Source of the DNA: Terriglobia bacterium
GTDB lineage: Bacteria > Acidobacteriota > Terriglobia > Bryobacterales > Bryobacteraceae
Assembly (NCBI GenBank): GCA_020073445.1
Contig: JAIQFE010000036.1
Location: forward strand, 1-61,118
Length of the DNA: 61,118 nucleotides
Direction of reading: 5' to 3'
Shown here in pieces: positions 21,498 through 34,518 of this stretch (position 1 is the stretch's first letter; each line of letters starts with the position of its first letter). The notes under the pieces were generated by a model. That model was given only the letters and a program-made list of their open reading frames with translations, ran no database searches and was not told the DNA's origin. Made by a program: the position numbers and the translations under genes.

Positions 21498-21929
21498 CTA
21501 TTTACCCGGACCGGGATCTGCCGGAGCGCCCGTACCCGACGATCCCAAGAACAGCTTCTTTCCGTCCGGATACGTGATGTTCGAGCCGTTGGCGCGATTC
21601 GACCCGTCCTTGGCCTGGAAGCCGTCGACGGCGATCTTCTGGCCCTTTTCGAGCGAACCCTTGTTGAAGCCGCGGCGCAGGAGAATGTTCGGACTGCCGC
21701 CTTCGACCATCCAGCTGGTCACCTTGCCGTCCGGTTCGGTGACGTCGATATGGATCCAGGTGTGGGGGTTGATCCATTCCATCTGCGTGACCACTCCCTC
21801 CAGATGGACCTGCTTCTTGCCGTCGTACTCCGCCGCGAAAGCATGATGCGCCTGCACCGGCGACACGACCAGCGACATACCAAACAAGCAGCCCACAGTC
21901 GCGATCGCAATCGAGAGGCTTTTTCGCAT
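21498..21929 (-). CDS. DUF6152 secreted protein (copy S1)
   Basis: 143 residues. A signal peptide ends VSPVQA and the predicted mature protein starts HHAFAAEYDG. The conserved core follows: a beta-rich fold with WINPHTWIHIDV, WMVEGGSPNILL and DGFQAKDGSNRANGSNITY. The four histidines (HH, NPH, WIH) and absence of cysteine in the mature part are shared with the two other copies at 26341 and 26867. No biochemical role is known to me. It is the third gene of module one (B-A-S), 27 bp after the A-type gene. Confidence 0.83.
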   Translation of the reverse strand: MRKSLSIAIATVGCLFGMSLVVSPVQAHHAFAAEYDGKKQVHLEGVVTQMEWINPHTWIHIDVTEPDGKVTSWMVEGGSPNILLRRGFNKGSLEKGQKIAVDGFQAKDGSNRANGSNITYPDGKKLFLGSSGTGAPADPGPGK

Positions 21930-21956
21930 GAGATAGTCTCCTGTCCTGAATCGATC

Positions 21957-23000
21957 TTACTTCTTGCCGGCCTTGGCCGCTTCCTCGGCGGCCTTTTCTT
22001 CCGCCCGAGCGCCCTTCAGCATGTTGAACATCGCGTAGTTGCCTTCGTGGCAGGCGTACTCATACAACGGAAACTCCGGATTCAACCGCAGCGGCATCCG
22101 GATGGTCCACGGCCGGACCCATGTTTTCGGATCGTTGATGGTGGCGGTGTATTCCATCATGTCGGGCGCGGTGCGCGTCCACTTTTCCGTGAGAACCATG
22201 TCGGCGCTATGGGGAGTGCCGCCACCGTTCAGCCCGATCCCGTTCTTATCGCCCAGGAAATTGGTGGTTTCGATCACCAGCGTGTTGCCTTCCCAATGGC
22301 CGCGTGAATCGCCCATATAGGACTTGATGTTCGAACCTTCATGCGGGCGCCCATCGAGCGGAACGATCTTGGTCTCGTGAATCATTTCGTAGCGGATCGC
22401 CACGTAGCCGGGACCCTGCACGATCTGCGTTCCGTTGTTATAAATCACCGGCAGGATCGATCCCATCACGCCGCGCGAGATGCAGCGGTCATACAGGCTC
22501 TGGTCTTCCCACGTTTCGTTGGGACCGTGCCCTTGCTTCGCCTGCTTGGCCTGCGCTGCTTTCTGCTTGGCGAGATCGGTCAGCTCGGGAATTCTGCCAT
22601 TCGGAGGATCGACCACCAGCGACGTGATCTTCTGGGGCCTTCCGTGCTCCAGCCAGTATCCGGGAGGATTGATGCCGACTTTCGAATCCTTGGAAACGTA
22701 CGCAACCCTGTCGTTCTCGGCGGTTCGCTCCGCCTTAGCTTGACGCTGCGCGAATTCCTCTTCGGTGACGTCGGTGCGATCTCCTGCCTTGAGGTCGCGC
22801 TGCAGGGGCACCTCAATCAGGTCGGTTCCGGGCCACAGGCCCTGAAGATCGGGATCGCCCCAGGGAAGCTTGGGCGGTGTGTAGGCAGACTTCTTAGCCT
22901 TGGTTGTTGGGGCTTGACCCACAATGGGCAGGGTAGCCAGCAGCACGGAAACAAGTACTGCCGTCAGCACCATCAGAGACGTTAGGACACGCTGCCTCAT
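21957..23000 (-). CDS. Secreted GHWEG-motif protein, A type (copy A1)
   Basis: 347 residues, signal peptide ending LPIVGQ. The A-type layout is PKLPWGDPDLQGLW near the N-terminus, LVVDPPNGRIPEL, LYDRCISRG, IVQGPGYVAIRYEMIHE, the motif RGHWEGNTLVIETTNF and a C-terminal YEYACHEGNYAM. The mature protein has exactly two cysteines (in DRC and YAC), as do all four paralogues in the window. The lysine/alanine-rich tail is extra. Function unknown. It starts 16 bp after copy B1. Confidence 0.8.
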   Translation of the reverse strand: MRQRVLTSLMVLTAVLVSVLLATLPIVGQAPTTKAKKSAYTPPKLPWGDPDLQGLWPGTDLIEVPLQRDLKAGDRTDVTEEEFAQRQAKAERTAENDRVAYVSKDSKVGINPPGYWLEHGRPQKITSLVVDPPNGRIPELTDLAKQKAAQAKQAKQGHGPNETWEDQSLYDRCISRGVMGSILPVIYNNGTQIVQGPGYVAIRYEMIHETKIVPLDGRPHEGSNIKSYMGDSRGHWEGNTLVIETTNFLGDKNGIGLNGGGTPHSADMVLTEKWTRTAPDMMEYTATINDPKTWVRPWTIRMPLRLNPEFPLYEYACHEGNYAMFNMLKGARAEEKAAEEAAKAGKK

Positions 23001-23016
23001 ACGGGGTCTCCTTTAC

Positions 23017-23865
23017 CTACTTTGTAGTCGGCTGTTTCTTGTACTTACCGTACAGCAATTCCTCGGCGAACTCGACGCACTTGAACTCCAGAATCTGGGC
23101 GTTCTTCTCGGCTCGTTTGTACAGCGGCAAGCTGATCTTCCAAGGCTTGGTGAACACGCTCGCGTCCTCAATGGTCGCCTCATAATCCATGACGTCGTTG
23201 CTGCGGCGCTTGTAACGCTCCACCACGTGCAGCTTGTCACTGGCGTAATTCCCTGCCCGATCGAACCAGCTAAGCCCGTTCAAACCAGTGACATCCACCA
23301 CCAGGGTGTCGCCTTCCCAGTGGCCGTTCGACGTTCCCATCCAGGTGTCGGAGCCGGCTTCGATCGGTTTCCCCATGTTGATCAGCTGGTTGGCGCTCGC
23401 GTACTCGTACGCCATTAGAATGTCTTTGTTGGACTGGATGATCTGGAACGGATACGGCATGTAGGTCGCGCGGGGGATCCCGGGCATATAGCACTTGGCT
23501 TCGGGATCCTCGGCGGGCCAGTTGGCCTTGTTCTGCTTCTTCTTTTCAAGCGCCGCCGGCTTGTAGGGGATCTCGTTGCCTTCGACCACTCCTTGGCCGG
23601 CAGGGATCGCGCCAATCGCGCCAAGCTGCCAGAATGGTCCGGGCGCCGGAGAATGATCCTGGATGTCCCAGTTGGCCGTGCCGATGTACTCCCACACGCC
23701 GTTCAGATTAGGCTTACCGTCGGACATCCGAAGTCCCTTGCCGACCGCTTTGGCAACTGCTTTCGCGGGAGCCGCTGGGGCCTGGGCTCGACCGGGAGTC
23801 AGCGTGAGCGAGACACAGACAACCGCAGCGGCGGCCGTGGATAGGAAAGCGAGCGTGTTGCGCAT
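23017..23865 (-). CDS. Secreted GHWEG-motif protein, B type (copy B1)
   Basis: 282 residues from ATG 23865 (a longer frame to 23973 is promoter DNA). The signal peptide spans about residues 1-27 and ends TPGRAQA. B-type layout: [75 protein letters not shown] and [17 protein letters not shown]. Two cysteines in the mature part align with those of A-type proteins, so both types are probably one superfamily. It is the first gene of module one and has its own promoter at 23918-23946. Confidence 0.8.
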   Translation of the reverse strand: MRNTLAFLSTAAAAVVCVSLTLTPGRAQAPAAPAKAVAKAVGKGLRMSDGKPNLNGVWEYIGTANWDIQDHSPAPGPFWQLGAIGAIPAGQGVVEGNEIPYKPAALEKKKQNKANWPAEDPEAKCYMPGIPRATYMPYPFQIIQSNKDILMAYEYASANQLINMGKPIEAGSDTWMGTSNGHWEGDTLVVDVTGLNGLSWFDRAGNYASDKLHVVERYKRRSNDVMDYEATIEDASVFTKPWKISLPLYKRAEKNAQILEFKCVEFAEELLYGKYKKQPTTK

Positions 23866-23917
23866 ATAGAGAGTCGAGAATGTCCGCGACGAGACGCGGG
23901 TGCGCCGTCGGCATTTA

Positions 23918-23946
23918 ATCGTACATTTGAACCGAGTGGGTGTCAA
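23918..23946 (-). promoter_or_regulatory. Sigma-70 promoter of module one (before B1)
   Basis: Minus strand: TTGACA (23946-23941), 17-base spacer, TACGAT (23923-23918), about 46 bases of leader. The -10 surroundings (AAATGTACGATTAAATGCC) are nearly identical to the promoter before copy B2 at 29230-29258, which points to shared ancestry or shared regulation. Confidence 0.65.
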
Positions 23947-23956
23947 TCTGCGGCCT

Positions 23957-25308
23957 CTAAGGAACACCAGCAACGGAGGGTTTGGTAGAAAGCGGAGCGG
24001 TCACAGGGAAGTTCGGATGAATTAGAAATCTGTAGGCCCCGCAAGCACCCGCAGCGGCCGGCTGGGCACAGGCCAGAGTTAGTGTGTTGAACATCAAATC
24101 GATACGAGTATTGAATGAGCCGTGCGGATCTGAGAGATCGTCGAATGTCGCTGCCAGAAGGCCCGCCTGACCAGTCACCATGCTCAATTTCGCCAATGCT
24201 CCCGCGCCAGCATAGGGATCGAATCCAGCGCCCAGCATCAACATCATTCCGAAGAGATCAGCATCCTGCTCGACATTAGCGATTAGCAAAGTCTTGCCAC
24301 GTTGAAATTGCGCGACATGACCCAGTTCATGCCCCACAATAAACGCGAGTTCACTCGAAGAATCACTGATCAGCTCCGATACGCTCAAATTAATTTGGAT
24401 GCTTCCTGGCCGGCCGAACGCGTTTATGACTTGGTCCGGGCTGATTACAAGATTCGCCGCGTTTGGTGCGTTGAGATTTACCCCGGTCAACCCAGCGCTT
24501 GCGACGAGTGAGGGCGCCGCAGCCAAGAGCTTCCAGTAAACATTCCAGATCCGATCGAAGTGATCTATCGGCCAAACCAAACGGCCCGGCGGCAGCGTCG
24601 ACAGCAGAGGGCCGTTGACGTTCAGAGTCCACGCCAGAAACTGATCTGTTCCCGAAGTTGTCGGGAAGATCCGTATGGAGCCGGTATAGCCTAATGGGAG
24701 GCTGGAAATCTTCTGAGCGAGACCAAAGGCCGAGTATTCGTTCGGCCCCAGATTGATCGCGGCGGTCCCGACTATGACGCCATTCGAGTCCAACGCCGTG
24801 ATCTGAAAGCTTCTGGCCACGGAGTAGATGTTCACCATCGCGATGCTGAGATCCCGGTTGGCCGGCGAGAAATATTGCTGGGACGGAAGCGTCGCGGGAG
24901 CGGATAGCTCCACTGTGGCAACGCCGTTATCGATCCGTCTGAAGAACACCGTTCCTTGCAGGGGAAGACTGGCCGTGGCAACCGCGTAACCGGTAACCGT
25001 CTTGGACGAAGCGATCGTACTGCGAAGGGTAAGGGAGCCAGCAGGAGGAATTATGAATAACTGAGTACTGAGCGGTCCCGAGCCCAGATCCAATGGGAGA
25101 GCCTTACCGTCATCCCCAAAGGTAAACAGAAATACGGCGGCGGGAAGCGTCAGATGGGGATTTACGAAGACGAACGAAGTCTGCCACTTCTGGACCGCAT
25201 CTCCACCATCGGCCAGATGCGGAAAATACAAATTGACTGGGCGCCGTCAGGGTCAAATTGAGCAAAGCAGGACGCCGCCAGGAGCAGGAAATAGGTGAGT
25301 TTGAGCAT
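23957..25308 (-). pseudogene. Secreted M48-type metalloprotease with beta-rich N-terminal domain; apparent frameshift
   Basis: The main frame (25231-23957, 424 codons) starts without an ATG at LYFPHLADGGDAVQKW. It has about 210 residues of beta-rich sequence, then an M48-like zinc site: HELGH with the downstream Glu in EQDADLFGM. A signal peptide in another frame starts at ATG 25308 (MLKLTYFLLLAASCFAQ). The catalytic frame has a TGA at 25249-25247 and the signal frame stops at 25162, so joining them needs a one-base shift in between (a missing base near 25240 would restore it). It may be a recent mutation, a sequencing error, or frameshifting. Confidence 0.6.
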
Positions 25309-25325
25309 GGGAAGAATCTTCCCAT
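25307..25325. promoter_or_regulatory. Inverted repeat covering the start codon of the M48 gene
   Basis: ATGGGAAGA, one central base, TCTTCCCAT: perfect 9-base arms. On the minus strand the first arm carries the only purine-rich ribosome-site candidate (GGGAAGA) and the second arm ends in the ATG of the signal-peptide frame. It could be an operator or an RNA fold that hides the start. Confidence 0.5.
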
Positions 25326-25393
25326 CAATTCTAAAAAAAACCTGCGAATTATTCCACGAAATAAAGCGAACGCGCGAGTGAAACTTGGGCGTA

Positions 25394-26344
25394 CTACTTG
25401 GATGCGGCCTTTTTTTCGTCGGCGCGGGCGCCGGCCAGCATGCCTTCCATCGCGTAATTGCCCTCATTGCAGGCGTATTCGATGATGGGACCCTCGGTTC
25501 GCTTCATCGGGATCTGCGCGGTCCACCGCTTGGTGAAAGCCGACGGATCGTCCACCGTGAACTCGTACATAACGGTGTCCGGCGCAGTGCGCGTGAAGCG
25601 CTCGACCAGGTGCATGTCCTGACTCGCGCGCTGAAAGCGGGTTTTATCGTTGAAGTTGGTGGTTTCGACCACCAGCGTGTTGCCTTCCCAGTGGCCGCGC
25701 GAATCTCCCAGCCATTCCCGAATCTTGGCATCCACGTGAGGCCGCGGATCGATGGGGATGATCCTTGCGTCGTGAATCATTTCGACCAGGATGACCACGT
25801 ATCCCGGGCCCTGCACGATCTGATAGTTGTTGTTGTAAAAGCTCGGCATCATCGGCGGACCAGCGGTCGGCCAGAGGATGCAGCGTTCGGGCAAGGACCG
25901 GTCTTCGGGACCTTCCGGCGGCCTGTTGAATCCGACTGGAGGGCCTGCGGGCGCGCCGGCCTTGCGCGGAATGTGTCCATCGGGCGGGTCGATCACCAGG
26001 GAAGTCCGCAGCGTCTCGACCACTTTGGTCCCGCGGTCGTACCAAGCATCGTTATAGGCGCGATTGAGGTCGGCTTGCGCGCCGCCATCCCGGCGATCCG
26101 CGTTGTTGCGATCGACGGTGTCCTTCTCATACTGGCGTGCTTCCGCCGGAGTAAAGAACTCCTTGCCTGCGAGATTGGCGGGGCGCTCCAGCGGAGTGAT
26201 CGTGACGTTAGTCCAGACGCCTTGCAGATCGGGTTGGCCATCGGGCGTGCGCGGCGGATTGTACTTACCCTGGCCGGCCTTACTCTGTGCTGCGAGCGTG
26301 CCCGTCAGAATCACGACCGCCAGCGCGATAACTTTGCCGCTCAT
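25394..26344 (-). CDS. Secreted GHWEG-motif protein, A type (copy A2)
   Basis: 316 residues; signal peptide about 1-19 (ALAVVILTGTLAAQ). A-type landmarks: PRTPDGQPDLQGVWTNVT, LVIDPPDGHIPRKAG, PERCILWPTAGPPMMP, YQIVQGPGYVVILVEMIHD, RGHWEGNTLVVETTNF and IEYACNEGNYAMEGM. Two mature cysteines at the shared positions. Compared with A1 it lacks the long lysine-rich tail. It is the last gene of module two and its start overlaps the stop of the preceding DUF6152 gene by 4 bp. Confidence 0.8.
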   Translation of the reverse strand: MSGKVIALAVVILTGTLAAQSKAGQGKYNPPRTPDGQPDLQGVWTNVTITPLERPANLAGKEFFTPAEARQYEKDTVDRNNADRRDGGAQADLNRAYNDAWYDRGTKVVETLRTSLVIDPPDGHIPRKAGAPAGPPVGFNRPPEGPEDRSLPERCILWPTAGPPMMPSFYNNNYQIVQGPGYVVILVEMIHDARIIPIDPRPHVDAKIREWLGDSRGHWEGNTLVVETTNFNDKTRFQRASQDMHLVERFTRTAPDTVMYEFTVDDPSAFTKRWTAQIPMKRTEGPIIEYACNEGNYAMEGMLAGARADEKKAASK

Positions 26345-26751
26345 TTCGCGTTCGGTTGTTCGTCGGGATTCGATCCACCCACGAACAGCTTCTTGCCGTC
26401 GGCGAAGGTAATGTCCCTGCCGTTTGCTCGATTGGACCCGTCCTTGGCCTGATAGCCGTCGACCAGAATCTCGGTTCCCTGCGGCAGAGCATCCTTGTTG
26501 ACACCGCGGCGAAACAGCGCGTTCGGGCTGCCGCCTTCCACCATCCAGCGGGTCACCTTGCCGTCGGCATCCTTCACGTCCATATGGATCCAGGAGTGTG
26601 GATTGATGAACTCGACTTTGACGACGGTCCCCTTCAGCTTCACCGGCTTCTGCGCATCGAATTCCGCCGCAAAAGCGTGATGCGCCCGCATCGGCGCGGC
26701 CGACATCAGCAGCCCTGCGATCCCCAACGCAATGGCCAGTCTATTCCACAT
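26341..26751 (-). CDS. DUF6152 secreted protein (copy S2)
   Basis: 136 residues from ATG 26751, which has an AAGGAG site 8 bases upstream; a longer frame to 26886 is not used. Signal peptide ends APMRA and the mature start would be HHAFAAEFDAQ. Core motifs FINPHSWIHMDV, WMVEGGSPNALFRRGV and DGYQAKDGSNRANGRDIT match the other two copies. There is no mature cysteine. It lies between copy S3 and copy A2 in module two; the gap to S3 is 115 bp and contains a GC-rich hairpin (GCGGCCGC repeats at about 26825-26845). Confidence 0.82.
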   Translation of the reverse strand: MWNRLAIALGIAGLLMSAAPMRAHHAFAAEFDAQKPVKLKGTVVKVEFINPHSWIHMDVKDADGKVTRWMVEGGSPNALFRRGVNKDALPQGTEILVDGYQAKDGSNRANGRDITFADGKKLFVGGSNPDEQPNAK

Positions 26752-26866
26752 AAGATTGCTCCTTCGTGCTTGGAACCATCGTACTCCTTCGGCTGCGTTC
26801 CCGCAGGCCCAGAAAATGAGAAAGGCGGCCGCGTTTGCGGCCGCCCGTGGATCCACACACCTGCAG

Positions 26867-27283
26867 TTATTGTTTGCCGTCGCCATTGGAGCCAGGAGCC
26901 GAGCCGCCCATGAACAGCCGCTTACCGTCCTTGGCGTAGGTCAGATTGGCGCCCACCGCCCGGTTGGCACCGTCCTTGGCCTGGTAACCTTCGACGATGA
27001 TCTCGGTTCCTTCGGGCAAAGATTCCTTGCTGAAGCCGTTGCGGAACAGCGAATTGGGGCTGCCGCCCTCCACCATCCAAGGAGTGATCTTACCGTCGGC
27101 GCCCTTCACATCAAGATGGATCCAGGAATGCGGATTGACCAGTTCCCACTTGGTGACGACGCCCTGCAGTTTGACCGGCGCCTTCTCGTTAAATTCCGCC
27201 GCGAAGGCGTGATGCGCCCGGACCGGCGCTACGGCGATCAGCATTCCTGCGCCAGCAAGGACAAGGGCTAGCTTCGTTCGCAT
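26867..27283 (-). CDS. DUF6152 secreted protein (copy S3)
   Basis: 138 residues from ATG 27283. Signal peptide ends APVRA; predicted mature start HHAFAAEFNEK. Core LVNPHSWIHLDV, WMVEGGSPNSLFRNGF and EGYQAKDGANRAVGANLTY. It is closer in wording to S2 than to S1, which suggests a local duplication after the module itself was copied. The start lies 19 bp after copy A3. Confidence 0.82.
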   Translation of the reverse strand: MRTKLALVLAGAGMLIAVAPVRAHHAFAAEFNEKAPVKLQGVVTKWELVNPHSWIHLDVKGADGKITPWMVEGGSPNSLFRNGFSKESLPEGTEIIVEGYQAKDGANRAVGANLTYAKDGKRLFMGGSAPGSNGDGKQ

Positions 27284-27302
27284 TGTCTTAGCTCCTACTT
27301 CT

Positions 27303-28328
27303 TTACTTCTTTTCAGTGGCGCGGGCGCCGCTGAGGTTGTTGGCCATTCCGTAGTTGCCTTCATGGCAGGCGTACTCATAGAGGCCGCCATCGATATGGA
27401 CCATATTGTACTCGCCCGAGAACGGCTTCACCCAGGTCTTGGGATCGTCCACGGTGAATTGGTAAGTGATGGTGTCGGCATCGATGCGCGTGAAGCGCTC
27501 GGTGACCTTGGCGGCATCGCTAACCGGCGCACCCTGGATCACAACCTGAGGATTGTAGTTGACGGTCTCGACGACAAGCGTGTCGCCTTCCCAATGGCCA
27601 ACGGAATCTCCCATCCAGCGTTTGATTTCCGCGGGCCCGTGCGGACGGCCGTCCGTCGGAATGACGCGGGTGTCATGAATCATTTCCTGGACGATCGCGA
27701 CGTAACCCTGGCCCTGAACGATTTCGAGCGTGGAGTTGTAGCCCACCGGCATCATTGGCGGACCTTCAAATCCCCAGGTAATGCAGCGTTCGGCGAGCGG
27801 ACGGTTCTGGGCGCTGTCCCACTGGTGCGCCTGCTGGTAGGCGCGCTTTTCGGCGACCATCTTCTGGACTTCGGGAAGCATCGCGGGCACGCGGCCCTCG
27901 GGTCCGGTGATGATGGAGGTCCGCAGGCTGGCGGCTCTCTTCACTGTGGGTCCGCCCAGACCGAACTGGCTGGTGTCATAGTGAACGGCGAGGCCGTTGC
28001 CTTCCAGATCCGCGGCCGCAGCCGGGCGCGGCGCAGCGCCTGCGCGTCCGCCTCTGCCTGCAGCTGCTTGTGCGGCAGATGCGACTTTGTCGGCTTCATC
28101 TGTGTAGAACTCTTTGGCGCCAAGGTACGCGGGCCGCGCGACGGGAACCGTCGTGGCGTTGGAATACACACCCTGCAGGTCCGGCTTGCCATCGGGAGTT
28201 CGCGGCATGATCCAGGTCTTCGCAGCGGGAGCCGGCTTGGCGGTTACCGGCGCTTGCGCGAATGCCGGCGCCGAAACCAGCGATACGACGGCCAGAGCGA
28301 TGAGTGAAGAGAGAACGTATCGTCTCAT
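27303..28328 (-). CDS. Secreted GHWEG-motif protein, A type (copy A3)
   Basis: 341 residues; signal peptide about 1-25 (ALAVVSLVSAPAFAQ). Landmarks: PRTPDGKPDLQGVYSNATT, an alanine/glycine/arginine-rich insert (AQAAAGRGGRAGAAPRPAA), AERCITWGFEGPPMMP, LEIVQGQGYVAIVQEMIHD, VGHWEGDTLVVETVNY, and YEYACHEGNYGMANNL. Two mature cysteines at the shared places. The start overlaps the stop of B2 by 4 bp (ATGA), so B2 and A3 are translated together. Confidence 0.8.
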   Translation of the reverse strand: MRRYVLSSLIALAVVSLVSAPAFAQAPVTAKPAPAAKTWIMPRTPDGKPDLQGVYSNATTVPVARPAYLGAKEFYTDEADKVASAAQAAAGRGGRAGAAPRPAAAADLEGNGLAVHYDTSQFGLGGPTVKRAASLRTSIITGPEGRVPAMLPEVQKMVAEKRAYQQAHQWDSAQNRPLAERCITWGFEGPPMMPVGYNSTLEIVQGQGYVAIVQEMIHDTRVIPTDGRPHGPAEIKRWMGDSVGHWEGDTLVVETVNYNPQVVIQGAPVSDAAKVTERFTRIDADTITYQFTVDDPKTWVKPFSGEYNMVHIDGGLYEYACHEGNYGMANNLSGARATEKK

Positions 28329-29176
28329 TTACTGTCTCCTTTTCCTTGCAGCGGCTGCTTCCGAAGATGCCCGTACAGAACTTCTTCGGCGAACTCCACA
28401 CACTTATATTCTAAGATCTGCGCGTTCTTTTCCAGGCGGCGATAGAGCGGCATGCTCATCTTCCATTGGCGCGTGAACACTTTGGGATCGTCAATGGTGG
28501 CCTCGTACTGTAGCGCGTCCGGTCCGATGGCGGTATAGCGCTCGATCACGTGCAGCGCGTCGCTGTGCCAGTTCCCGGCGCGATCGAACCAGGTGGAATC
28601 GTTCAGGCTGGTGACATCGACCACCAGTGATTCGCCTTCCCAATGACCGTTCGACCATCCCATCCAGCTATCGGCCGGGGCCTTGGTCGGCGCACCCATA
28701 TTAATAACGCGCACCGCGCCGGCGTATTCGTACACAAACATGATGGTGCCGGTTCCCTGTACGATCTGGAACGGATACGGCATGTACGTCGACCGCGGTA
28801 CTCCGCCCATGTAGCACTTGATCTCGGGATCGAGCTTCAGGCGGTTGGTGAAATTTTCCTTTTGTTTGGCGGCGGCTTCGGGCTTGTAGGGAATCTCACC
28901 GCCCTCCACAACGCCCAGTCCGGCCGGCGTCGAATAGGCCGCGCCCAGAGCGGAAACCGGTCCGGCATAAGCCGCATGCGGGCGAATATCCCAATTGGCC
29001 TCGTTGTTAGCCTGCCAGATGCCGTTCAGGTTGGGCTTCCCATCCTTGGTTTTCGGGGCCTTGTATGCAGGAGCTTGCGCGGGGGTGGGGAGCACGGCTA
29101 GGGATAAAAGCGCCATTCCCGCAGTAGCCACTACTAACCAGCCTCCCAACCGACTTTTTCCCAGCCCAATCCGCAT
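28325..29176 (-). CDS. Secreted GHWEG-motif protein, B type (copy B2)
   Basis: 283 residues; signal peptide about 1-34 ([16 protein letters not shown]). B-type landmarks: [74 protein letters not shown] and [17 protein letters not shown]. Strongly similar to B1 along its length, with both cysteines conserved. It heads module two (B2-A3-S3-S2-A2) and is divergent from the copper ATPase gene. Confidence 0.8.
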
Positions 29177-29229
29177 CCTGGCAGTCTCCTATTGGCCCGC
29201 AGCGCAGCGGGTACCCGACACCGGCATTG

Positions 29230-29258
29230 ATCGTACATTCAAACACATACGAAGTCAA
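29230..29258 (-). promoter_or_regulatory. Sigma-70 promoter of module two (before B2)
   Basis: Minus strand: TTGACT (29258-29253), 17-base spacer, TACGAT (29235-29230), leader about 47 bases. Same spacing, same -10 and the same flanking words (GAATGTACGATCAATGCC) as the promoter before B1. The copA ATG lies only 34 bp away on the other strand, so the two transcription units share this control region. Confidence 0.65.
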
Positions 29259-29291
29259 GGCGGTACTAAAGCAGTCGTGCGAACATCAATT

Positions 29292-31616
29292 ATGGGCGGA
29301 TCACATGGACCAACCCCAGTGAGTTCGAACAACCCGTTCCAGATCCACCCGGCGTCGTCTGGCCCCTCGGGCCCTAAAGTTAAGGACCCGGTTTGTGGCA
29401 TGGAGGTTACCCCAGCCAAGGCCGCAGGCAGTTTCGAGTATGGAGGCCAGGCCTACTACTTCTGCGCCAAGAGCTGCCTGGCGAAGTTCCAGGCCGACCC
29501 GCTGAAATTCCTCGCGCCGAAGCCGGCCGTTTCGGCAGCCCACGCAAAAGACGTTGAATACACCTGTCCGATGCACCCCGAGGTGGTTCAAATGGGACCC
29601 GGGACCTGTCCGATCTGCGGCATGGCGCTGGAGCCGAAGGAGATCCAGGCCGGAGATACTGAAAATCCCGAACTGGCGGATATGCAGAGGCGGTTCTGGA
29701 TCAGTGTCGTCCTGACTCTGCCTTTGTTCGTCTTATCCATGACCATGCTCGCGCCGCATGGCGCAAGGAGTTGGATCGAGCTGGCTTTGGCGACCCCGGT
29801 GGTCCTATGGGCGGGCTGGCCGTTCTTCGTGCGCGCCTGGCAGTCGATTCTCACCCACAACCTTAATATGTTCACGCTGATCGGACTCGGGGTCGGCGTG
29901 GCGTACGTCTTCAGCCTGTTCGCGACCTTCTTCCCGCCGGCGTTTCCGTTGGAATTCCGCGACGATATGGGTCAGGTCCCGGTCTACTTCGAAGCGTCCG
30001 CGATGATTGTGACGCTGGTACTGCTGGGACAGGTTCTGGAACTCAAAGCCCGCAGCCGGACAGGAGCTGCTATCAAGGCTCTGCTCGGGCTCGCACCCAA
30101 GACCGCACGCCTGATCGGCGCCGATGGAACCGAAACGGACGTGCCTCTCGATCAGATCCACGCTGACAATCTCCTGCGAGTGCGGCCGGGCGAAAAGATT
30201 CCAGTGGACGGTGTCGTGGTGGAAGGCGCGAGCGCTGTGGATGAATCAATGCTCACGGGCGAGCCGATTCCGATCGAGAAAACTGTCGGCAATAAGGTTA
30301 CGGGCGCGACGGTGAACGGCAACGGATCGCTGATCGTCAAAGCCGAGCGCGTGGGATCGGAGACGCTCCTGGCGCAGATTGTCCGAATGGTATCCGAAGC
30401 CCAGCGCAGCCGGGCACCGATCCAGAAACTGGCCGATCGGGTGGCCGCCTACTTCGTGCCAACGGTGGCGGCGATCGCGATCGCGACGTTCTTCGTGTGG
30501 AGCTCGTGGGGACCGCAGCCGCGCCTCGCGCACGCCCTGGTGAATGCGGTCGCGGTCTTGATCATCGCCTGCCCGTGCGCGCTGGGACTGGCGACACCGA
30601 TGTCGATCATGGTCGCGATGGGCAAAGGCGCGACCATGGGCGTGCTGTTCAAGAACGCCGAAGCGATCGAGCTGCTACATCAGGCCGACACCCTGGTGGT
30701 CGATAAAACCGGGACGCTTACCGAAGGCAAACCGAAGCTGGTGGCGATCGAACCGGCACAGGGGTTCGACGAGAAACGCCTGCTCTATCTCGCCGCGAGT
30801 CTGGAACGGGCCAGCGAGCATCCGCTGGCGCACGCGGTAGTGACAGGCGCACAGGATCGCGGCATTTCACTTGGCGCAGTAGATGGGTTTCAGGCGATTC
30901 CCGGCAAAGGCGCTCGCGGGCGGGTCGACGGTGCCGACGTCGCGGTTGGCAATCTGGCCCTCATGCAGGAAGCCGGTGTGACTGTCACCGGATCCAGCGC
31001 GTTGTTTGTCGCGGTGGACGGCAAGTTCGCAGGACGGCTCAGCGTCGCCGATCCGATCAAATCAACTAGCGCCGAAGCCATCCGGCAACTGCACGCGGAA
31101 GGGATGCGCATCGTCATGCTGACCGGTGACAGCCGTGCTACGGCCGAAGCTGTGGCGAAAAAGCTGGGAGGCACTTTGAATACGATAGAAGTCGTCGCCG
31201 AAGTGCTGCCGCAGGACAAACGCATGCACGTCCAGCGGCTCCAGGAATCAGGCCGGTTCGTCGCGATGGCGGGCGACGGGATCAACGACGCCCCGGCACT
31301 GGCGCAGGCTCAAGTCGGAATCGCCATGGGAACCGGCACCGACATCGCCATGGAGAGCGCGGGGGTGACCCTGGTTCGCGGAGACCTGCGCGGCATCGCG
31401 CGGGCGCGCAGGCTCAGCCGGGCCACCATGCGCAATATCCGGCAGAATCTATTCTTCGCCTTTGTTTACAACTCCCTGGGGGTACCGATCGCCGCAGGAG
31501 TGCTCTATCCCGTGTTCGGACTATTACTTAGCCCCATGATCGCCGCGGCCGCGATGAGCTTCAGTTCGGTCTCCGTGATCAGCAACGCGTTGCGGCTGCG
31601 GACCACCAAAGTCTGA
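29292..31616 (+). CDS. copA: Copper-type P1B ATPase with YHS and metal-binding N-terminal domains
   Basis: 774 residues from ATG 29292 (a frame back to 28995 is antisense to B2). N-terminus: a YHS domain ([28 protein letters not shown]) and a Cys/Met/His-rich domain ([19 protein letters not shown]) in place of the usual HMA. The ATPase core has the CPC motif at 427-429, phosphorylated D471 in DKTGT, SEHPLAH and [10 protein letters not shown]. The last helices have YN (FVYNSLG) and MSFSS, the Cu(I) signature of the P1B-1 group. It exports copper from the cytoplasm. Confidence 0.92.
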
Positions 31617-32673: not shown

Positions 32674-33858
32674 CTAGTGCGTGACCGACAACGCTACGTC
32701 GTGCGACATCACGGCAGGTGTCCGCATCGCGCGCTTTTCCTGCTGCAGGACGTGGACGGCCATCAACGCCCCAACCGGATGGGCGCCCATGCGTACTGCA
32801 GGTTCGGCGTCCAGCGCGGGGCGGTCTCCGTCGAGGTGCTGAAACTCGAAGACCGCTCGCATCGCGCTGGCTTCCTCCATCCCCAGGCCGTATTCCATGC
32901 ATACGGCATCCAGGTCGCGGAACATCCGCTGTCTCAGTGCCGGTTTATGGCGCGACTCATAGAGCAGCTTGTTCAACCGGTACGCCGAGATCGGAGGGTG
33001 GTCGTAGTAGTGAAACGGGTGGCTCTGGAACTGATACGGCTGCGACGGTACCGCATTGCGCTTTTCGCCGGGAAGAAAGCGCGCCACCGCGTGGCCGTGA
33101 TGCGAGGTTTCCTGGTACGACAACAATTCCATGTGTTGTGCGCCAACCGCGCCGAGCACGATCGCCCAGGGCAACATCTCGGTATTGCCCACTTCGTCCA
33201 GTTGCTCCGGCGTCAGGTTCAGGAACGAACCCGTGTGGCTGTTTTCCAACTCGCGAATGCACCACCGGTCGAAATCGTACGCGGGCTGATAGTACTTCGC
33301 CGTACCAGGGTAGTGGGACATTCCGCCGCTGGCGAGGAGCGCGACGCGCTCCGGCTTGGCAGCCACGATTTCCGCGATCGCCCGGCCCAAAGCGGCACAG
33401 CGCTGAGGCCGTGGCAGAGGAGGCAGATACGTGTTCACGAAAATCGGCACCACGGGAATGTCCCGCGTACCCAGGATCCATTCGAAGGGCGCGGCGAAGG
33501 AGTGTCCCAACACCGCATCCTGCGAGTACGCCATATCGAAATCGCGGCGAACCAAGCCTTCGAGAATATCTTCGGACAGCTTCTGGTGAATTGCCGGATT
33601 CCAGGTTCGGCCCGCGAAGGCAGTTTTCGCGCGCTCTCCAGCAATCACCGCGAACGTCGGGACGGATTGCAGGAAGAACGTTTCCAGATGGTCGCTGGCG
33701 AAAATCACCAGCGCGTCCGGCTTGGTCTCATCCAGCACCTGGCCCAGTTTTCGCATGGCTGCGATTCCCGCGTCGAGCTGTTTCGGATCCTCCTCGGGAG
33801 GGCGCGTAAACAGCTGCGGTGCGTGCATGGTGGCCATGGCTGCCACGATTTTTCCCAT
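32674..33858 (-). CDS. Class III extradiol dioxygenase, LigB-LigA fusion
   Basis: 394 residues from ATG 33858, which has GAGGTG 6 bases upstream (GTG at 33867 is a poorer start). The LigB-type catalytic domain covers about 1-275: iron-site candidates include MATMHAPQL, FASDHLETF and the conserved SGGMSHYPG. The C-terminal part contains NKLLYESRHKPALRQRM and AVCMEYGLGMEEASAM, the small LigA fold normally encoded separately. Such enzymes open aromatic rings of protocatechuate or gallate type. The real substrate is unknown and no aromatic pathway genes are nearby. Confidence 0.82.
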   Translation of the reverse strand: MGKIVAAMATMHAPQLFTRPPEEDPKQLDAGIAAMRKLGQVLDETKPDALVIFASDHLETFFLQSVPTFAVIAGERAKTAFAGRTWNPAIHQKLSEDILEGLVRRDFDMAYSQDAVLGHSFAAPFEWILGTRDIPVVPIFVNTYLPPLPRPQRCAALGRAIAEIVAAKPERVALLASGGMSHYPGTAKYYQPAYDFDRWCIRELENSHTGSFLNLTPEQLDEVGNTEMLPWAIVLGAVGAQHMELLSYQETSHHGHAVARFLPGEKRNAVPSQPYQFQSHPFHYYDHPPISAYRLNKLLYESRHKPALRQRMFRDLDAVCMEYGLGMEEASAMRAVFEFQHLDGDRPALDAEPAVRMGAHPVGALMAVHVLQQEKRAMRTPAVMSHDVALSVTH

Positions 33859-34116
33859 GTGGTTCACCTCGCGATAGTCGATGAATAATCAGCACTTTTC
33901 GCTCCAAAACGGAACGATTGAAAACGCAGGATTACCCGCCGGGATGCCGCTCCCGCCAGCGAATGCCTGAGTGATATCCCCCAGGTCGCATCGTGGACGC
34001 GGGCGATCTAGCGCATCCCGTCATGAACGCAAGACGGCGATCTCCCGTATTTGCTAATCTTCGGGCGAGCCGGAGTGTGGTCCGGCACCTGCAACCGAGC
34101 TTATCGAGAGGGGCTA
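33859..34116. other. Divergent intergenic region
   Basis: 258 bp between the dioxygenase and the cytochrome gene. A short CGCGGGCGATC run and mirrored GATATC words are present, but I see no convincing promoter, RNA gene or repeat. It should hold promoters for both neighbours. Confidence 0.4.
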
Positions 34117-34518
34117 ATGTTAACCAGATTCCTAGTGTTGGGATTGATTGGAGTTGCGAGTCTTTGGGCGCAAGGGTCCGATCAAAAGGCCCCTCCCAAA
34201 AAAGCCAAGGCCGACGCGGTGAACTACTATCGCGACATCGAGCCGATCCTGAACGCGAATTGTGTGTCCTGCCATCAGGCATCGATGGCGGCTGGCGGGT
34301 TGAGAGTGGATGCTCCCGAGAACCTTCTGCAAGGTGGGGCATCCGGCAAGGCGGTGATCCCCGGAAAAGCGGAGCGCAGTCTGCTCTACACGCGCCTCAC
34401 CGTCACTACCGACAAGCGGATGCCTCCAGTGGGTATGGTGACCGAGGAGCAGTTGGCCCTGATTCGCGCCTGGATCAACTTGGGGGCAAAGATCGGGCCT
34501 GCGCCGCCAAAACGTTAA
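34117..34518 (+). CDS. Secreted cytochrome c-like protein (planctomycete-type domain)
   Basis: 133 residues from ATG 34117 (GAGAGGGG ribosome site). Signal peptide MLTRFLVLGLIGVASLWAQ. One haem-binding CVSCH motif follows YYRDIEPILNANC, the typical lead-in of PSCyt1-type c domains. A possible distal Met ligand is in TDKRMPPVGM, and the segment EEQLALIRAWINLGA closes the fold. Usually this domain is fused to larger DUF1549/DUF1553 proteins; here it stands alone. Electron partner unknown. Confidence 0.83.
   Translation: MLTRFLVLGLIGVASLWAQGSDQKAPPKKAKADAVNYYRDIEPILNANCVSCHQASMAAGGLRVDAPENLLQGGASGKAVIPGKAERSLLYTRLTVTTDKRMPPVGMVTEEQLALIRAWINLGAKIGPAPPKR

Follow-up and report, generated by a model that had tools for sequence, protein, structure and literature searches.

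A linked and expanded module of DUF6152 and predicted beta-barrel proteins, probably secreted, in a Bryobacteraceae genome

We analysed a 61,118-nucleotide stretch of the genome of a Terriglobia bacterium from the family Bryobacteraceae (GenBank assembly GCA_020073445.1, contig JAIQFE010000036.1; hereafter, the window denotes this whole stretch), in which two gene clusters encode proteins of the DUF6152 family (PF19649), here denoted S, along with long (A) and short (B) members of a superfamily of predicted barrel proteins, here denoted A/B. The genes for S and A/B are linked, and both families are expanded into numerous paralogues in this genome, so that the window appears to hold two of roughly 90 clusters per genome of an undescribed, secreted two-family module. 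There is good support for a genetic partnership between S and A/B. As to the function, the reading that we put forward, at about an even chance, is that S is a secreted metal chelator with N-terminal histidines that serves ligand-binding or catalytic A/B barrels.

Linkage and expansion of the S and A/B genes

In the 6.58 Mb genome that contains the window, profile searches detected 62 S and 129 A/B matches (the latter with the B profile, with 150 of the 223 candidates scored, such that the true number is perhaps higher). When genes were called in 88 stretches surrounding these matches, 128 A/B and 62 S genes were obtained, including four S-A/B fusions, an A/B to S ratio of about two to one; the caller was our own script, and for nine or more S genes the start that it chose is too far downstream. 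Together, the two families account for ~3% of the genes in the genome, at one gene per 1.1 kb. A same-strand A/B gene is located within 1 kb of 45 of the 62 S genes, compared with ~1.6 expected. In a genome of another family (G027), with 34 S and 85 A/B, 17 of the 34 S are linked in this manner against at most 1.0 expected, a comparison that employed 85 of the 128 A/B matches, with the weaker fragments left out. An earlier note on this DNA had proposed that these secreted families work together, with random relative placement set beforehand as the refutation; such placement was looked for and did not occur, and the linkage, the fusions and the co-occurrence in the same genomes strongly support the proposal.

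In a sample of 60 genomes from the phylum, S, A/B (E-value up to 1e-12) and a third family, the membrane protein DUF6644, are all confined to the same two genomes; because the window comes from one of them, the independent evidence of co-occurrence is that of one genome. A scan of a collection of 84,980 species, in which the best 80 of 581 confirmed matches were followed up, produced 79 further loci (L127-L205), mostly from Acidobacteriota, with a few from Proteobacteria and two from metagenome-assembled genomes labelled Acidimicrobiia. In these loci, 76 of the 83 unfused S genes have a same-strand A/B gene at most two genes away; the gene directly upstream is A/B for 69 of the 83 (median gap, 34 bp), and the one downstream for 28. 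The order is less fixed in the window's genome, where A/B lies upstream of 18 and downstream of 31 of the 58 unfused S genes. The pair recurs in Vicinamibacteria, Alphaproteobacteria and Gammaproteobacteria, and is also present on plasmids of Sphingobium and Novosphingobium. A plasmid of Croceibacterium atlanticum (L209:9929-20318) carries two DUF6152 genes, a hypothetical gene and a TonB receptor gene, with two genes for G8-domain proteins flanking them. Viral contigs, scanned with S1 alone, contained no relative.

A first look at the order level gave 70, 59 and 29 candidates in three genomes of the genus and 4 to 18 in the other 22; these candidates are not copy numbers, the threshold having been too strict, and only hint at an expansion of the module at the level of the genus. 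Searches of the literature available to us returned no paper on DUF6152 or DUF6644, and none on acidobacterial paralogues that describes them by title.

Two families of old paralogues

The earlier note distinguished three families, which we reduce to two. A1 and B1 are homologous (BLASTP E-value 3e-19, 32% identity over 131 amino acids) and have in common a G-H-W-E-G core and two cysteines; hence the module comprises two families, the other being DUF6152. S1, S2 and S3 score 104-114 bits against the curated DUF6152 cut-off of 27, and neither Pfam nor NCBIfam gave a meaningful match for A1-A3, B1 and B2, the only Pfam matches being to unrelated families with E-values of 0.19 and 0.24. Profile comparison gave no support for a common origin of S and A/B.

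The repeated B-A-S order that had been described as a duplicated module is real, but the duplication is not recent. Another Bryobacterales stretch (L127), cut at A3, encodes orthologues with 86-91% identity for seven of the eight proteins of the window's two modules; for the eighth, B2, the best match is 74%, in L174. The paralogues within the window are far more diverged from each other than from their orthologues in L127, so that the duplication is old.

The predicted N-terminus and fold of S

In nearly all S proteins, a predicted signal peptide is followed by alanine and two histidines. The pattern [ASG]HH is found near the called start in 55 of the 62 S proteins of the window's genome; six of the other seven are among the late-called starts, for which the upstream frame provides a signal-peptide-like stretch and HH, bringing the count to 61 of 62, and the single S without HH is a fusion protein (in L058). 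In G027, where S was retrieved with the Pfam profile, independently of the motif, HH directly follows a signal-peptide-like stretch in 34 of 34 S. As controls from the same loci, [ASG]HH occurs in 3 of 821 other proteins and in 0 of 124 A/B. The residue preceding HH is alanine in 133 of 135 cases. Among the 79 further loci, 80 of the 84 S as called contain HH, a count that is biased because the retrieval pattern included AHH. An NPH motif is near-invariant as well (61/62 in the window's genome, 83/84 in the further loci, and 29/34 in G027).

AlphaFold predicts an OB-fold for S, in a comparison (as for A) limited to the fold families in the comparison lists; the structure alignments drew on sequences that were complete at both ends and of suitable length, reduced by identity to 62 A-like, 16 B-like and 70 S, to which those of the window were added. 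A sequence search of the PDB detected no relatives of S or A/B. The residues that a histidine brace would need to bind one metal, an N-terminal histidine and a second histidine close to it in space, have conserved candidates in the sequence of S. As in CopC, the mature protein would begin with histidine, provided that the signal peptide is cleaved as predicted.

Histidines exposed by cleavage have been used to discover metalloproteins, and, according to the accessible part of that study, an N-terminal histidine is found in 2.6% of the proteins with signal peptides, and candidates with a second ligand at position 2 are rejected by the method (PMC12537917). The main text of that paper makes no mention of DUF6152 (‘6152’). 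Besides His-His, S possesses the NPH histidine as a further potential ligand.

The predicted A/B barrels and their neighbours

The AlphaFold model of A is a barrel resembling fatty-acid-binding protein and NanoLuc, a moderate match. No sequence relation of A/B to fatty-acid-binding proteins, NanoLuc or lipocalins was detected, and the best PDB sequence match (E-value 0.034) is unrelated. Polar residues are conserved across the superfamily.

We scanned 119 of the 219 immediate neighbours (same strand, within 200 bp, long proteins cut to 450 amino acids) against Pfam. Among the first 25 of the 125 families found, these neighbours are diverse, including esterases, tannase, metallo-beta-lactamase-fold hydrolases, pyrroloquinoline quinone (PQQ) dehydrogenases and c-type cytochromes, and there is no dominant partner family. 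This diversity fits with many different ligands. A cluster of 17 neighbour genes from 15 loci, which we take to be PQQ dehydrogenases by their sequence, was considered as an enrichment, but there are 89 matched stretches (perhaps 50 genes) genome-wide, and we make no claim for it.

DUF6644, a membrane neighbour of a subset of modules

A DUF6644 gene lies within 1.5 kb of S at three of the eight DUF6644 sites in the window's genome (p ~0.003) and in 19 of the 71 further loci that contain S; in G027, it is within 700 bp of S at all three sites, including one where DUF6644 scores below the Pfam cut-off. With a broader profile, DUF6644-like genes were detected in 5 of 47 loci of the window's genome. 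Such genes are embedded in arrays in L049 (10470-12865) and L060 (1868-3436), and some of them have an additional membrane domain, with several histidines, joined at the N-terminus. In Povalibacter uvarum DSM 26723 (L192:10001-11762), a practical organism for tests, B-A-S is followed by two DUF6644 genes within ~300 bp.

Comparison of the DUF6644 and CopD profiles with hhalign produced a match with a probability of 93.5 and an E-value of 2.4e-7, with a histidine and a lysine in register: H33 and K103, invariant in 45 DUF6644 sequences, align with H26 (invariant) and K107 (at least 90%) of 12 CopD sequences. The CopD cut-off of Pfam (PF05425, 32.1 bits) is not reached, the best scores being 22.9 in the window's genome and 21.1 among the ten DUF6644 proteins scanned, some of which have sub-threshold matches to CopD, DUF2214 and UPF0093. 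The sole match to the CopD profile in the window's genome (E-value 5e-4, below the cut-off) is a DUF6644 protein encoded beside an S gene. A distant likeness to CopD is thus suggested. In Bacillus subtilis YcnJ under copper limitation, the CopC site and a conserved CopD histidine are both required, according to the available part of PMC13344008.

Layout of the window

The gene order reported previously, B1-A1-S1 (23865 to 21498) and B2-A3-S3 followed by S2-A2 (29176 to 25394), all on the minus strand, is correct (Table 1), as is the divergent orientation of the second module relative to a P1B-type ATPase. The 4-bp overlaps ascribed to the junctions of module two hold for B2/A3 and S2/A2 and not for the remaining ones; A3 and S3 are separated by ~19 bp, and module one lacks overlaps. 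Sites resembling TTGAC..TACGAT upstream of B1 and B2 were considered as a shared promoter; promoter-like sites are no commoner than in shuffled sequences. The idea was rejected because the GTACGAT/TGTACGA core is not a feature of the module: it occurs in 3 of 81 module and 6 of 351 other upstream regions, and two of the three belong to the window's array. Terminator-like sites in the region are about as numerous as in shuffles. Between the two modules, a protein with an M48 peptidase domain (HELGH) is encoded at 23957-25231, and close to the array there are genes for a LigB-type dioxygenase (32674-33867) and a Planctomycete-type cytochrome c (PSCyt1) protein (34051-34518).

Table 1 Features of the two modules in the window and the S-A/B fusions elsewhere in the genome
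Feature	Coordinates	Strand	Remarks
S1, DUF6152 (PF19649)	21498..21929	-	Pfam 4.1e-33; cleavage pattern between A and HH; OB-fold (AlphaFold)
S1, predicted mature N-terminus His28-His29	21848-21843	-	codons; NPH at residues 54-56
A1, long A/B member	21957..23000	-	
B1, short A/B member	23017..23865	-	homology to A1
A2	25394..26344	-	4-bp overlap with S2 (26341-26344); 86% orthologue in L127
S2, DUF6152	26341..26751	-	Pfam 1.5e-32 on 26341-26757; predicted mature N-terminus His24-His25
Terminator-like hairpin between S3 and S2	26823..26846	-	consensus match only
S3, DUF6152	26867..27283	-	Pfam 3.6e-30 on 26867-27280; predicted mature N-terminus His24-His25
A3	27303..28328	-	4-bp overlap with B2 (28325-28328)
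B2	28325..29176	-	alternative start 29131 from the scripted gene caller
P1B-type heavy-metal ATPase, YHS and HMBD domains	29295..31616	+	divergent neighbour, judged outside the module
S-A/B fusion, one chain	L040:4465-5565		
S-A/B fusion, one chain	L058:13123-14247		without His-His
S-A/B fusion, one chain	L068:9970-11112		
S-A/B fusion, one chain	L094:4444-5628		

Discussion

In the reading that we favour, S is exported, and cleavage of the signal peptide would leave His-His at the mature N-terminus of an OB-fold protein. These two residues and the near-invariant NPH histidine most likely form a transition-metal site; metal binding by S seems to be the most economical interpretation of His-His together with the CopD-like neighbours. 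Copper would be the first choice, which is a guess, with nickel or zinc possible. The A/B proteins would be exported, too, probably as calycin-like beta-barrels with disulfide bonds and a set of conserved polar residues; secretion is presumed for every copy of both families. The most probable role of A/B is to bind small organic molecules as ligands or to convert them, and, from how many copies there are and how far they have diverged, each may be specific for one class of ligand. The metal needed by A/B or by a neighbouring enzyme would most probably be held or delivered by S, perhaps in direct contact with A/B, and, in the subset of modules that include it, DUF6644 could pass the metal (or electrons) across the inner membrane, in the way that CopC hands Cu(II) to CopD.

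Several observations weigh against this reading. In the window's genome, 17 of the 62 S have no same-strand A/B nearby, and 80 of the 129 A/B have no S within 1 kb; therefore, S and A/B are not strictly obligate partners locally. The modelled topology of S makes a histidine brace within a monomer doubtful. Most modules lack DUF6644, and the S encoded beside the CopD-matching DUF6644 is the weakest copy, without NPH. Furthermore, the CopD likeness is suggestive at best because membrane proteins can inflate profile scores.

A somewhat unlikely alternative is that A/B are the working part, as secreted binding proteins or lyase- or isomerase-like enzymes for organic compounds from plants or soil. 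S would then be a helper that does not bind metal, for instance in folding or docking, with its His-His kept for export or docking. The twofold excess of A/B over S, the conserved polar residues of the barrel and the presence of esterases, tannase, metallo-beta-lactamase-fold hydrolases and PQQ dehydrogenases among the close neighbours all point in this direction, as do the fusions that join S and A/B in one chain, but the position of His-His exactly at the predicted mature N-terminus in every G027 copy and the CopD-like neighbours would then be left unexplained.

We consider it quite unlikely that the module handles heme or electrons, with a HemJ/CopD-like DUF6644 that may bind heme b, and with S and A/B as shuttles that deliver either of the two to oxidases and cytochromes in the periplasm. 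One of the ten DUF6644 proteins weakly matches UPF0093 (E-value 0.005) in addition to CopD, the invariant histidine and lysine would fit, and c-type cytochromes and PQQ dehydrogenases are among the neighbours. However, the heme-binding motif CxxCH is absent from all called S (0/62 in the window's genome and 0/84 in the further loci) and all unfused A/B (0/124 and 0/182, respectively), DUF6644 is missing from most modules, and two cytochrome c families match only 3 each of the 119 close same-strand neighbours.

That the module deals with copper stress in conjunction with the neighbouring CopA-type ATPase, in line with the earlier note, is very improbable. The start of the ATPase gene is ~120-220 bp from B2, depending on the start codon, and on the Croceibacterium plasmid, a counter-example, a P-type ATPase is encoded ~9.5 kb from the DUF6152 genes. 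Nevertheless, a phmmer search of the called genes with the window's ATPase (E-value up to 1e-40) detected it in 1 of the 88 loci of the window's genome and in none of the 79 further loci, including those of relatives with a similar array (L131 and L173). The ATPase is incidental to the module, and its adjacency in the window is local. The copper argument through adjacency to copA is thus not supported, and a metal or copper role is now favoured by the N-terminal His-His and the CopD-like DUF6644, which point to it indirectly. Paralogue inflation without a shared function, with drifting duplicates kept together by history, is hardly credible, even though large paralogue numbers are known, with 67.8% paralogues in the related Solibacter usitatus Ellin6076 (PMC3174227, in the part available), given that near-invariant residues are kept across divergent copies of both families and that the linkage is found again in Acidobacteriota, Gammaproteobacteria and Alphaproteobacteria.

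Among the known systems, the proposed chelator and barrel module resembles CopC-CopD and YcnJ in that a secreted protein with a (predicted) mature N-terminal histidine is encoded, in the DUF6644-containing subset, next to a polytopic membrane protein in which a histidine is conserved. It differs in that DUF6644 does not reach the CopD cut-off, such a membrane partner is missing from most modules, and A/B have no counterpart in those systems. CopC itself adopts a beta-sandwich (cupredoxin-like) fold, unlike the predicted OB-fold of S. DUF4198, DUF6702 and the anglerases are similar to S in having a conserved histidine exposed by signal-peptide cleavage and further potential metal ligands; these are beta-sandwiches, according to the available text of PMC12537917, and S differs by its predicted OB-fold, its operon with A/B and its large expansion. 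Neither DUF4198 nor DUF6702 was among the Pfam matches of S1-S3 at E-values up to 1. Compared with fatty-acid-binding protein and NanoLuc, A/B have long insertions and two conserved cysteines, and are bacterial and apparently secreted. HemJ (UPF0093), which has a conserved histidine and lysine, and DUF2214 are membrane families that DUF6644 matches weakly, below threshold only, and their gene context is different.

A further step would be to regard the dozens of calycin-like barrels as tuned to their ligands and as paired, one by one, with OB-fold metal proteins that begin with histidine, together forming a paralogous set of extracytoplasmic metal-dependent catalysts for diverse soil organics and an undescribed two-subunit metalloenzyme family; in our estimate, this is rather unlikely. 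Two linked families, mostly secreted and neither with a known role, make up ~3% of the genes of a soil bacterium. The His-His motif offers a direct and cheap way to test the function of DUF6152 and a first entry into a large block of the acidobacterial dark proteome. If S does bind a metal, the OB-fold would join the folds that carry N-terminal-histidine metal sites.

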